Part shown: piece after piece, positions 24,082 through 28,447 of the stretch
How positions within the stretch are numbered: the first letter of the stretch is position 1
How the letters are laid out: every line of letters starts with the position of its first letter
Origin: Phytoactinopolyspora limicola
Lineage (GTDB): Bacteria > Actinomycetota > Actinomycetes > Jiangellales > Jiangellaceae
Assembly: GCF_011320225.1 (NCBI RefSeq)
Contig: NZ_JAAOEN010000001.1
Location: forward strand, 725,652-789,651
Length of the DNA: 64,000 bases
Reading direction: 5' to 3'
The notes under the pieces: model-generated
The model's database searches: none
What the model was told of the DNA's origin: nothing
Seen by the model: only the letters and a program-made list of their open reading frames with translations
Translations under genes and position numbers: made by a program

Positions 24082-26661
24082 ATGCTTCGTACCAGGTTGA
24101 CCCAGATGCGTGCGCATGCCGGCCGGCTCGTTGCCGCCGCCGTCGCCATCATGATTGCCACGACACTGGTGGCGGCCTTCATGGTGGCGGCCGGGGTCTT
24201 GGAGAAGACGGCGTTTAATGCGGTGTCGGTTTCGCACGCCAACGCGGACGTCATTCTGGAAGAGCCGTACCAAGGGTTCTCCACCGAGATGGTCGAGCAG
24301 ATCCGGCGCCAACCGGAAGCCGCTGGTGCCGACGGCCGGTTCGTCGTCCACACGGTGATTCGTGCTGGTGGGCGCAGCGACTCGCCGACGGTGGCGCCGC
24401 TGCCGGAGACTCCTGAACTACGCATCGAGTTGGACGAAGGGAGATACCCTGAGGCTCGCGGGGAGATCCTGGTGTCCCACGAGATAGCCGAACGCCTCGA
24501 CCTGGATCTCGGGTCGTCGGTGGAACTACTGGATACCAGCGCCGACGTCGGCCTTGCGGGCCGGTCCGGTGGACCCGGCGGGCAACCGGCCGACGGGCTG
24601 ACGGTGACCGGTACGTTCATTCATCCGGGGGCCGCGTTCGACCACAACGTACCTGGCATGTTCGGGCGGGCCGCCGAGGTGGAGCTCTGGTCGGGGCACA
24701 CGACGGTGCGATATGAGCGGGTGATAGCGCTGGCGTCGCCGGGGACGTCGGCCGAGGAATTGCGCACCGCCTTGGAACCACTGGCCGACCAGGTCGGCAC
24801 GGTTGTGTATACCGCCGATGAGTACGCGCGGATCATGACGGCCCGGTTCACCGCCGACAGCTACATCTTGGCCGCCGTGCTAGCGGCCCTGGTGGGAGTA
24901 GCGCTGGTGGTGGCCGGTCTCGTGATCGCGAACACCTTTGCCGTGATCGTCGCCCAACGGACCAGGGAGCTCGCGCTGTTGCGCTGCGTGGGTGCCACCC
25001 GGCGGCAGGTCCGCAACGGTGTTCTGGTGGAAGCCGGCGGGCTTGGTGTGGCGGCGTCGCTGGCGGGTATCGCGGCCGGAATCGGCCTCGCCCAGATCAC
25101 GATCATGGTGCTCCGGGCCGTTCTGGACTTCCCATGGTTCCCTGAGCGCCCTGAGGTATCTGTGCTGGCGCTCCTGATTCCTCTGGTGGTGGGGGTGACG
25201 GTCACCATCCTCGCGGCGCTGGCGCCGGCCCGGGCGGCGACGAGAGTGTCTCCGCTCGCCGCGTTGCGTCCTCCGGAGCCGGGAGGCATCGGCCGCGGCA
25301 CCTCGGTGCGGAGACTCGCGGCAGCTGCCGGCGTGGTTGTTGTGGGTGCGCTGCTGATGGTGGCCGGGATAGGTGCGACGGCGCGAGGGCAGACGGAACT
25401 CGGGTTGGCCATCGGGGTGTTGGGTGGCGCGCTGTCCTTCTCCGGAGTCGTCATCGGGTCCGTCGTGCTCGTCACGGTGATCGTTGCCGCACTTTCGCGG
25501 CCGCTTCGTGTGGCGGGAGTGCCCGGCCGGATGGCCGCCCTGAACGCGCTACGACACCCCCGGCGTACGGCAGCCACCGCGGTTGCACTGCTGATCGGGG
25601 TGACGCTGGTGGCAATGATGTCGGTGGGTGCGGCGTCGGCGCGGGCGACGTTCGCGGGTGAGCTGGATGCTCGTTATCCAGTCGACATCGCTGTTGGGCC
25701 GGTGATCGATGACACCGGCCGGCACCGCCTACCCGACGAGGTGCTGAATGTCACCGAGGGGGTCGCCGGAGTGGGCGACCTGATGCCGCTGCGCTCGTCG
25801 CGGGCGTTGGTGCGGAACGCGGCCCTGGAGGGTGACGCCGCGCTCCAGCCGATCGAGGCGGAGGTCCATGGCGTCGACGTCGGTCGGGCGCGTGACGTGA
25901 TGCACGCCGGCATCGACGACCTCGAGCCGGGCGCGGCCATGGTGTCGCGGCAAATCACCGCGATGACAGGTATCGACGAAGGCGACCTGATCCAGCTTCA
26001 GATGGGCTCGCAGACGATCGAGTTGCGCGCCGTGTTCGCACCAGTGGAACGGCACACCATCCTGGTCACGGCGGCCGACCTGGCCGCGCTGGACCCGGAC
26101 GCGAGTATCGGCATGCTGTGGGTCAAACTCGCCGACGGTTCATCCGCCGAGACTGTCGCCAGAACGCTGCGGGACCAGCTCAGCCTTCTGACCACTGACA
26201 TGGGGATACCGGTGACAACGGCCGGAGCTACCCGGGCGGAGGTTTCTCGGGTGCTGGACACCATGCTGATGGTGGTGGTTGGACTACTCGCGGTGTCGGT
26301 GGTCATCGCCTTGATCGGCATCGGCAACACATTGTCGCTGTCGGTTATCGAACGGCGTCGTGAGTCGGCGACCATGCGGACACTCGGTCTCACCCGGCGT
26401 CAGCTGCGGGTGATGCTCGCGTTCGAAGGGGTTATCGTCGCGGCGGTGGCCGTGTTCCCGGGTATCACCCTGGGGTTGATCTATGGCTGGGCCGGGACGT
26501 TGACGGCGTTCGGCGGCGTGTGGGATGTCGCGTTAGGGGTTCCGTGGCGGTGGTTGGCCGGAATAGCCGGGTTAGCCATCCTGGCCGGGCTCGCTGCCAG
26601 CGTGCTGCCAGGGCGCCGGGCCGCGCGCGACGATCCGATCACCGCCGTCAGCGCCGGATAA
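24082..26661 (+). CDS. Two-block FtsX-type ABC permease (module 2)
   Basis: This 859-residue membrane protein has a first N-terminal helix, a large extracellular domain, and FtsX blocks near residues 270-390 ('VIVAQRTRELALLRCVGATRRQVRNGVLVEAG') and 730-850 ('LSVIERRRESATMRTLGLTRRQLRVMLAFEGV'), with four further helices between and a second extracellular domain (about 500-710). This is the usual ~850-residue actinobacterial form. It starts with ATG overlapping the TGA of a 14-codon frame. The stop TAA is 8 bases from the inverted-repeat element at 26669. Confidence 0.94.
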   Translation: MLRTRLTQMRAHAGRLVAAAVAIMIATTLVAAFMVAAGVLEKTAFNAVSVSHANADVILEEPYQGFSTEMVEQIRRQPEAAGADGRFVVHTVIRAGGRSDSPTVAPLPETPELRIELDEGRYPEARGEILVSHEIAERLDLDLGSSVELLDTSADVGLAGRSGGPGGQPADGLTVTGTFIHPGAAFDHNVPGMFGRAAEVELWSGHTTVRYERVIALASPGTSAEELRTALEPLADQVGTVVYTADEYARIMTARFTADSYILAAVLAALVGVALVVAGLVIANTFAVIVAQRTRELALLRCVGATRRQVRNGVLVEAGGLGVAASLAGIAAGIGLAQITIMVLRAVLDFPWFPERPEVSVLALLIPLVVGVTVTILAALAPARAATRVSPLAALRPPEPGGIGRGTSVRRLAAAAGVVVVGALLMVAGIGATARGQTELGLAIGVLGGALSFSGVVIGSVVLVTVIVAALSRPLRVAGVPGRMAALNALRHPRRTAATAVALLIGVTLVAMMSVGAASARATFAGELDARYPVDIAVGPVIDDTGRHRLPDEVLNVTEGVAGVGDLMPLRSSRALVRNAALEGDAALQPIEAEVHGVDVGRARDVMHAGIDDLEPGAAMVSRQITAMTGIDEGDLIQLQMGSQTIELRAVFAPVERHTILVTAADLAALDPDASIGMLWVKLADGSSAETVARTLRDQLSLLTTDMGIPVTTAGATRAEVSRVLDTMLMVVVGLLAVSVVIALIGIGNTLSLSVIERRRESATMRTLGLTRRQLRVMLAFEGVIVAAVAVFPGITLGLIYGWAGTLTAFGGVWDVALGVPWRWLAGIAGLAILAGLAASVLPGRRAARDDPITAVSAG

Positions 26662-26668
26662 CCCCCGT

Positions 26669-26703
26669 TGTGCACCTGATCTCCGTTTTGACGCCTGATC
26701 GTT
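26669..26703 (+). repeat. Left terminal inverted repeat
   Basis: Perfect reverse complement of 27115-27149 over 35 bases. It contains two half-sites of the internal motif, TGCACCTGATC and CGCCTGATCG. Similarity continues weakly outward through a C-run on the left and a G-run on the right. Confidence 0.9.
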
Positions 26704-27114
26704 TCTACCGGGGCGATCAGATGCGGGTGACGACGTGTTGACGGCGGTCGATGGCGAGTCGGTGCATCTGATCGGGTCTCAGAGTGTGGACGTGTAGCGA
26801 TCAGATGCACGAACGGCCGGTTCAGGGCGTGTAGTGCATCTGATCGTCGAGCAGGTTTGGCGATCCGGGTCCCGCAAAGTGTGATGCGTAGCCGGGTGTG
26901 TCGGGCGCTGGCGGTGGAAACGTCCGGTTGGAACGGCGTGCATCGACGCCGTCGACGCCGATGGGCCTGACGATCAGATGCGCCAACTCCCCAAATCAAG
27001 TCCGTCGTGCATCTGATCGTCGCCCGTCCGCATCGTGGGACGCGATCAGATGCGCCGCACCCCGCGTTGACCAGCAACGTCGTCATCAAACGTGCATCTG
27101 ATCGTCGCCACACT

Positions 27115-27149
27115 AACGATCAGGCGTCAAAACGGAGATCAGGTGCACA
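27115..27149 (-). repeat. Right terminal inverted repeat
   Basis: Perfect reverse complement of 26669-26703. The distance between the two repeats (411 bases) is filled by the four internal inverted pairs. Confidence 0.9.
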
Positions 27150-27292: not shown

Positions 27293-27325
27293 GAAGGCCC
27301 CTCGGAGTAAGGGTCCGAGGGGCCT
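27293..27325. terminator. Strong GC hairpin
   Basis: AAGGCCCCTCGGA (27293-27305) and TCCGAGGGGCCTT (27313-27325) pair perfectly with a 7-base loop. This form is typical of intrinsic terminators in high-GC genomes, yet no gene ends directly next to it on either strand. It may terminate an unannotated transcript from the region on either side. Confidence 0.6.
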
Positions 27326-27805
27326 TCAGGTCGATCGCGTTACCTTGAGCCTGATGGCCTCGTCGCCGATCCGACCTTGCCGAGCACGCCCGGCGGGCCG
27401 GATGCGGACCCGGAGGCCCACTCCAGATACTGCCTCCCGATGTGGCAGCTGCGGCGGATCGCATGGTGACCCACACGTCGCGCATCGCGATCTTGGCCTT
27501 CCGGACCGTACAGGACCTCCACGCATCGGGCGTGTCAGCCAGGTGGAGCCTGGCTCGTGACCTGCCGTTCTCCGGTCGACCCACCCGTCCGGTTTGGCCC
27601 GCCGGTCAAGTTTCCCTGGCCGATTGTGAGCCGCCCCGTCGAGGCGATGGAGCATGTCTAGTCTGGTTGTGCCGGCTACGCAAGGGGTTCGGGCCAAGAA
27701 ATTTTGGGTGGCTACATACCCACAGCTTCATCCACAACGTGGCCAGCGGGATCAGGCATCGCCCACAACCCTGTGCACAAAATCTGTGGACGAGATGGTC
27801 GCCGG
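27326..27805. other. Gene-poor region with DnaA-box-like cluster
   Basis: Several overlapping frames exist (for example leftward 27326-27697) but none shows recognisable protein content, so a decayed gene is possible. Between 27716 and 27793 five 9-mers resemble the DnaA box (TTGTCCACA/TTATCCACA): ATACCCACA, TCATCCACA, TCGCCCACA, and the complements of TGTGCACAA and TGTGGACGA, three of them with one mismatch. An AT-rich run (aagaaatttt) precedes them. No dnaA or dnaN gene is nearby. Confidence 0.35.
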
Positions 27806-28447
27806 TCAGTCGTCCTCGTGATCATGCCCATCGTCGTCATGCCCATCGTGGCCGTCATGGTCATGATCGTCGTCGTCGAGCCCATCGTCGTCGTCCACGT
27901 TCGGGTCGTCGCCCAGGTCCGGGTCGTCGTCGGCGTGGAACTCTAGGGTGTCGCCGGCCGTGTTGGTCAGGGTCAGCCGCTCGCCGGCGATATCAACGCT
28001 GACCTCGTCGTGCAGCACTTGGAGCATCGCCATGTCGATGTCGCCGAGCTCGCCCGTGCAGGCCCGCTTGGTGGCGATCACCGGACCAAGGGTCAGCGAA
28101 CCGTCCTCGCTGGACTCGATGTCCCCGCCGAAGCTGTTGCAGCCGGTGTTGCCACCGATCTCGTTCTCGTCGAAGACCACGTAGGCGGCGACGTCGTCCG
28201 AAGTTTCGGTCGATTCGTCGTTGACGGCCACCCGGTCGAGCTGCCAATGCGTGCCGAACAGCGGCGCGTCCGCGTCGGCCTCGGAGCCAGAACCGTTGTC
28301 CGGAACGGCAGTGGTGTCGTCGTTGTTGTCATCGCCGTTGTTTCCACACGCAGCCACTGCGACGACGCCGGCCACGGCAATCAGTACTCGAAGTCGTCTC
28401 ATGAGGGTGGGACGTACTCGCCTGGCGGCTAGTTCCATCGAGATCAT
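27806..28447 (-). CDS. META-domain lipoprotein with His/Asp-rich tail
   Basis: The start at ATG 28447 is chosen for the GGAGG seven bases upstream, giving 213 residues. The signal peptide ends in a lipobox (VAVAAC, Cys34), followed by an Asn/Asp linker and a META (HslJ-like) domain with 'GTHWQLDRVAVND', 'GGNTGCNSFGGDIE' and 'TKRACTGELGDIDMAMLQVL'. The last ~40 residues are almost only Asp, His and Gly (DDDDHDHDGHDGHDDDGHDH), suggesting metal binding outside the membrane. The role of META domains in Actinobacteria is poorly known. Confidence 0.85.
   Translation of the reverse strand: MISMELAARRVRPTLMRRLRVLIAVAGVVAVAACGNNGDDNNDDTTAVPDNGSGSEADADAPLFGTHWQLDRVAVNDESTETSDDVAAYVVFDENEIGGNTGCNSFGGDIESSEDGSLTLGPVIATKRACTGELGDIDMAMLQVLHDEVSVDIAGERLTLTNTAGDTLEFHADDDPDLGDDPNVDDDDGLDDDDHDHDGHDGHDDDGHDHEDD

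Follow-up and report, generated by a model that had tools for sequence, protein, structure and literature searches.

What kind of sequence encodes no protein, lies directly behind the stop codon of a permease gene, and carries perfect inverted ends around a symmetric array of one short motif? The question is raised by 481 gene-free bases at positions 26669-27149 of the window, i.e. the whole 64,000-nucleotide stretch of DNA analysed here, which belongs to a 6.59-Mb Phytoactinopolyspora genome (G000) of the Jiangellaceae, a family of soil bacteria. The borders first proposed for this element were verified, and its position is between the permease stop codon and a terminator-like hairpin at 27293-27327 (Table 1). 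Each arm contains five to six copies of a 9-12 bp motif, consensus (G)CRYCTGATCG, at fixed spacing (> 19 > 23 < ~50 > ~34 < ~38 >), with the right arm mirroring the left. The perfect 35-bp inverted ends described in an earlier note on this DNA are present as claimed, as are four inverted motif pairs with spans of 61, 49, 49 and 62 bases (26714-26774, 26798-26846, 26971-27019 and 27043-27104). The symmetric layout drawn from these pairs was exact as far as it went, but it overlooked that both ends carry a further outer motif (26690-26701 and 27117-27128), placed 19 bp inward of the first. The sequence TGCATCTGATCG or a form with one mismatch is found eight times inside the element and once in the rest of the 64-kb window; 100 shuffles gave a mean of 0.45 and a maximum of 3. 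No Rfam family matches the element.

Table 1. Coordinates of the element, its neighbours and the candidate partner gene. Positions refer to the window unless a locus or contig is given.
Feature	Position	Strand	Remarks
Upstream FtsX-type ABC permease gene	24106..26661	+	ORF start 24082; stop codon adjoins element
C-rich outer end CCCCCGTTG	26662..26670	+	TAA stop of the permease gene immediately before
Left 35-bp terminal inverted repeat	26669..26703	+	holds two motif copies, 19 bp apart
Left arm, motif array > > < > < >	26671..26846	+	motifs at 26671, 26690, 26714, 26763, 26798, 26835
Central spacer	26847..26970	.	length and sequence vary among copies; a gene instead in some copies
Right arm, inverted motif array < > < > < <	26971..27147	-	motifs at 26971, 27008, 27043, 27093, 27117, 27136
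Right 35-bp terminal inverted repeat	27115..27149	-	perfect match to left end
Intrinsic-terminator-like hairpin	27293..27327	.	older than element; also at the element-free G001 locus and the G004 locus
Downstream lipoprotein-like gene	27806..28375	-	convergent; from gene finder
Partner gene, 310 aa	L104:1451-2380 = G000:C7:70450-71379		intact; lies between two arms

According to the earlier note, the element as a single strand could fold into a four-armed multibranch structure. Our folding analysis does not favour this model: the minimum-energy structure is a single long rod or hairpin in which one arm pairs with the other, and none of the shuffles is equally stable (z = -15.6 for the RNA fold, -15.4 for the DNA fold). 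When only local pairing is allowed (span up to 70), the energy is -211 vs -319, a penalty of more than 100 kcal/mol, and the inner hairpins have loops that hardly exceed shuffled ones in stability and form little structure by themselves, if any. The idea that the stems were kept while the spacers diverged is partly right; yet the variable columns, too, agree within a copy. In 38 two-armed copies, this agreement amounts to 63% between the arms of the same copy vs 42% between copies, and the maximum in 10,000 permutations was 51%. Because the loops are homogenised as well, template switching or conversion between the arms probably explains their likeness better than hairpin selection alone.

The element belongs to a dispersed family. 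Its end sequence TGCACCTGATCTCCGTTT occurs 90 + 86 times in G000, i.e. 176 near-identical ends from about 90 elements, and GCATCTGATCG is found exactly 394 times; reversed-sequence controls for the ends and the motif gave 0. At the 60 loci read, most copies are two-armed and about 435-660 bp long (median 519); besides these, there are one-armed copies of about 150-220 bp, and the long copies reach 1.47 kb. Many contigs of G000 begin or end in or beside an element (C1, C2, C6, C11, C14, C16, C19, C21), and therefore the copy number and the neighbours are under-counted in this genome. The copies at L103, L105, L108, L041 and L032 share, in their centres, a near-perfect hairpin of another kind, GCTACCGCCAGATGGCGTTAA...TTAACGCCATCTGGCGGTAGC, and L026 contains another long perfect hairpin, distinct again; these extra central hairpins are possibly other palindromic repeats nested inside.

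A search of the genome and its relatives, as the earlier note had proposed, found the family again in related genera. The spacing grammar (19, 23, 39/50, 33, 39) is common to P. alkaliphila (G004), Jiangella gansuensis (G014) and other Jiangella, and the same arrays are present in Haloactinopolyspora alba. The motif itself varies by genome: it reads GTCACCTGATC in Jiangella, and GTCATCTGATC is among the forms of P. alkaliphila. Across 22 genomes of the family, 303 inverted pairs were counted in G000, 97 in G011, 77 in G004, 58 in G014, 57 in G021, 29 in G013, 12 in G015, 11 in G010 and 9 in G018, and 0-1 in each of the remaining ones. Among 394 Actinomycetes genomes, the strict end pattern has no match outside Jiangellaceae. 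A scan of genome contigs with the exact pattern in the motif variant of G000 gave no match; with a degenerate pattern, the matches listed come from H. alba and P. alkaliphila only. A literature search, mostly of papers readable without subscription, found no description of the repeat or of a repeat/AbiEi partnership.

Comparison of copies and of orthologous sites provides good support for the view that the element is a mobile, non-autonomous palindromic repeat. The copies at L021 and L114 share 97.5% identity over a length of 611 bp, their homology ends at the element borders, and the flanks on either side are unrelated; pairs of arms reach 98.8% identity. L103 and L108 have only one half in common, at 98%, so some copies are mosaic. 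The empty site sought by the earlier note was found: G001 is collinear at the window locus, with 26 bp in place of the 601 bp of the window, and no motif array follows the same permease stop codon in G001, G002, G003 or G004. Since all four congeners lack the element at this locus, it was inserted there. A second copy of G000, behind sdhB, is missing from G001 too, and for this one the direction of change is ambiguous. At the P. alkaliphila orthologue of the window locus (L135), three tandem units of another hairpin-like sequence, GCCGGACGACCACGTCCCACACC..., stand after the permease stop codon. No target-site duplication was seen at the inspected copies, where the C-rich flanks are inverted rather than direct and the empty sites are too diverged for single-base calls.

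The placement of the copies is far from even. According to a codon-usage gene finder, whose individual gene assignments may be wrong, convergent gene pairs host 34 of the 56 classifiable copies; in the window, 11 of 50 gene pairs are convergent (Fisher p 7e-5). A stop codon is faced by 84 of 107 ends (p 2e-9), mostly at a distance of 45 nt or less and often of 10 nt or less. Most of 97 ends in G000 show a C-rich sequence with GTTG, often directly after a stop codon, and in several copies the neighbouring reading frame terminates inside the repeat.

Which protein, then, could move such a repeat? In G000, one intact gene lies between two arms (Table 1); it encodes an AbiEi-type protein, and its H. 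alba orthologue (L102, 58% identity) is likewise enclosed by two arms. Array-flanked orthologues with 55-64% identity are found in 8 of the 22 family genomes (G000, G004, G011, G014, G010, G018, G015 and G013), with one array-linked gene per genome, while the paralogues of the protein (44-52% identity) have no flanking arrays. All eight genomes with the gene contain 9-303 inverted pairs, and 13 of the 14 without it contain 0-1 (Fisher p 3e-5). On a species tree inferred from one locus (sdhAB), which adjoins the partner gene, gene and arrays change jointly in four supported sister pairs (G018/G017, G010/G006, G014/G020 and G000/G001). Beside the gene, the arms carry the form of the motif that is typical of the respective genome, i.e. 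GCATCTGATC in G000, GTCATCTGATC in G004 and GTCACCTGATC in Jiangella. Furthermore, the gene still has its arrays at each of three sites, as it does in Jiangella, where array loci number no more than about 4-5. The Jiangella genome G021, with 57 array pairs and no close partner gene, is the sole genome that possesses arrays without the gene, and in G014 the gene is broken by a frameshift or stop. At two loci of G021 (L211 and L222), the arrays are 97.4% identical, which points either to recent gene loss or to another mobiliser.

The sdhB locus is shared by several of the gene-array linkages, which for this reason trace to one event. The interval between sdhB and pcrA (L166-L183) is variable and contains an array-flanked AbiEi-type gene, an array-free distant AbiEi-like gene, a glyoxalase, other genes, or nothing. 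In G006, G012, G016 and G021, another AbiEi-like gene is present at the sdhB locus, without arrays. In P. alkaliphila, the arms between pcrA and sdhB (L056/L179) enclose a glyoxalase/bleomycin-resistance-like gene (PF19581, PF20066) in the place that the partner gene takes in other genomes. In P. alkaliphila, the partner gene together with its arms does not look like a clean insertion, as the congeners have a different gene there. No relative of the partner protein was found on viral contigs.

From its sequence, the partner appears to be a DNA-binding protein of the AbiEi winged-helix type that ends in a putative C-terminal DUF559/Vsr-like (PD-(D/E)XK) domain, for which a nuclease role is plausible. 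The protein matches the PADLOC AbiEi profile with an E-value of 9e-19. Matches to the Pfam profiles DUF559 and MTES_1575 are weak in the array-linked members, where those to DUF559 stay below the Pfam cut-off and are missing for the L104, L102 and L139 proteins, and stronger in the paralogues, one of which exceeds the cut-off. In the alignment, D239 and E250 are kept throughout; D239, E250 and D252 are conserved in the array-linked members, which read EVDG or EIDG vs EVHG or EIHG in the unlinked paralogues. A structure prediction of the partner made from no alignment has a pLDDT of 32, too low for use, and comparison with solved structures gave no meaningful match. Jiangellaceae have an expanded set of AbiEi-type proteins that match DUF559 weakly (L104, L138 and paralogues): 21 of the 22 genomes gave 2-10 hits each. 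As binding sites, AbiEi proteins use sets of inverted repeats 23 bp in length, and they autoregulate through inverted repeats (PMC7319586), and DUF559 domains are found in Vsr-like PD-(D/E)XK endonucleases (PMC12907096).

We hypothesize, at a rough probability of 0.52, that the element is a REPIN-like non-autonomous mobile repeat whose most likely trans-acting partner is the array-flanked AbiEi-type gene. Gene and arrays are present jointly and the gene is flanked by the same repeat, which therefore suggests a possible partnership of the REPIN/RAYT kind built on a different protein. Linkage and co-occurrence support this partnership, and from them we infer the mobilising role; G021 without the gene and G014 with a broken one call for caution in reading this genomic support. 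More tentatively, the agent that recognises and spreads the palindromic arrays may be no transposase but an AbiEi-type protein equipped with a Vsr-like PD-(D/E)XK domain, to which the arrays would belong. In such a scheme, the AbiEi part would bind the alternating motifs, and the nuclease part would nick or cut the array ends or the hairpin extruded from single-stranded DNA. Repair or replication template switching would then copy the arm or the element to the 3' side of another gene, and template switching would also account for the likeness of the two arms within a copy. New copies would persist where they are least harmful, i.e. just after stop codons and above all between convergent genes.

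The resemblance to REPINs and their RAYT proteins is considerable: the copies are inverted doublets, extragenic, numerous and scattered over the genome, the repeat variant is genome-specific, and one gene is flanked by repeats, mostly at the same locus within Jiangella (PMC3116915). As a mobiliser, a RAYT (Y1) transposase is excluded as far as tested, since PF01797 is absent from G000 and was detected in 5 of 14 genomes as a control; the palindromic units alternate and a single-copy gene is flanked by repeats, as such a system would have it, but there are no GTAG/CGTC-tagged 20-40 bp units, and we give it next to no weight. Unlike a REPIN with its one 20-40 bp hairpin, the unit here is an arm of about 165 nt with five to six copies of a 9-12 bp motif, and the linked protein is AbiEi-type instead of a Y1 (HUH) transposase. 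Enterobacterial BIMEs are likewise mosaic, extragenic arrays of one unit in alternating orientation at gene 3' ends; they differ in the unit itself, the fixed spacing grammar, the 35-bp perfect outer ends and the lack of a RAYT here. MITEs, Correia/NEMIS, ERIC, BOX/RUP and MIRU elements are short non-coding repeats, palindromic and bounded by terminal inverted repeats; some of these elements overlap stop codons. Like MITEs, the present family has terminal inverted repeats, no coding capacity and dispersed copies; unlike this whole group, it has an internal motif array and its own candidate partner gene, and no related transposase or target-site duplication was found for it. An ordinary MITE, moved in trans by a DDE or other transposase, with the AbiEi-DUF559 gene as old, inherited cargo of the sdhB-pcrA locus, is nevertheless the alternative to which we give some, if clearly smaller, credence. 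The glyoxalase gene as other cargo at that locus in P. alkaliphila, the recent copies in G021 and the several linkages at one shared locus would agree with it; the joint gain or loss of gene and arrays four times on the tree, the arrays kept by the gene at three sites and in array-poor Jiangella, the missing target-site duplication, and the fact that no examined copy encloses a transposase would not. A transposase with matching ends, which the earlier note proposed to look for, did not turn up in the long copies that were read: these enclose the AbiEi-type gene or the glyoxalase. G000 has no Y1 protein. The classification as a REP/REPIN- or MITE-like mobile repeat stands in that the family is dispersed, recently copied and absent from the site in four congeners, but falls short with regard to a RAYT mobiliser. 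The further remark that it fits neither class exactly agrees with arms of five to six motifs, with no target-site duplication seen and with a different candidate partner gene.

Two further models assign the arrays a function. Between convergent genes, they could serve the host as a bidirectional terminator, insulator or binding platform that selection retains and that spreads chiefly through recombination. The marked preference for convergent pairs and stop codons, the high stability of the hairpin on both strands, and the C-rich tract right after the stop codon on both strands would suit such a role. We consider it improbable: at the window locus, the native terminator-like hairpin is still present behind the element and the locus works element-free in four congeners, the family is absent from most relatives, and the reading frames that run into the ends at several copies are what insertions would give. 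Slightly less probable again is the model that the arrays are operators or decoys of the AbiEi-type protein, acting in autoregulation, titration, a toxin-antitoxin system or defence, with dispersal as a secondary effect. AbiEi antitoxins, among them AbiEi of S. agalactiae and Rv2827c of M. tuberculosis, bind sets of inverted repeats, and AbiEi proteins autoregulate through inverted repeats (PMC7319586); an array adjoins the partner gene in 8 of 8 genomes. The linked protein matches the AbiEi profiles but, unlike these antitoxins, has a DUF559-like C-terminal region, no toxin gene was seen beside it, and dispersed arrays flank its gene. Against the operator model, in Jiangella the array is located at the 3' end of the gene and not at the promoter, and about 90 copies at unrelated gene ends do not resemble a regulon.

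If the partnership with the AbiEi-type protein is true, it would be a second, independently evolved partnership of the REPIN/RAYT type and would reveal a new role for AbiEi/DUF559 proteins. How short palindromic repeats without a transposase of their own spread is unresolved even for REPINs. The Jiangellaceae repeat would offer a test case in which the candidate partner is of another protein class: its motif is clear, its spacing follows a fixed code, sister genomes have gained or lost both components, and the gene concerned is single and small. In these genomes, AbiEi/DUF559-type proteins are abundant and mostly unexplained, and a link to the repeat would assign a function to one group of them.
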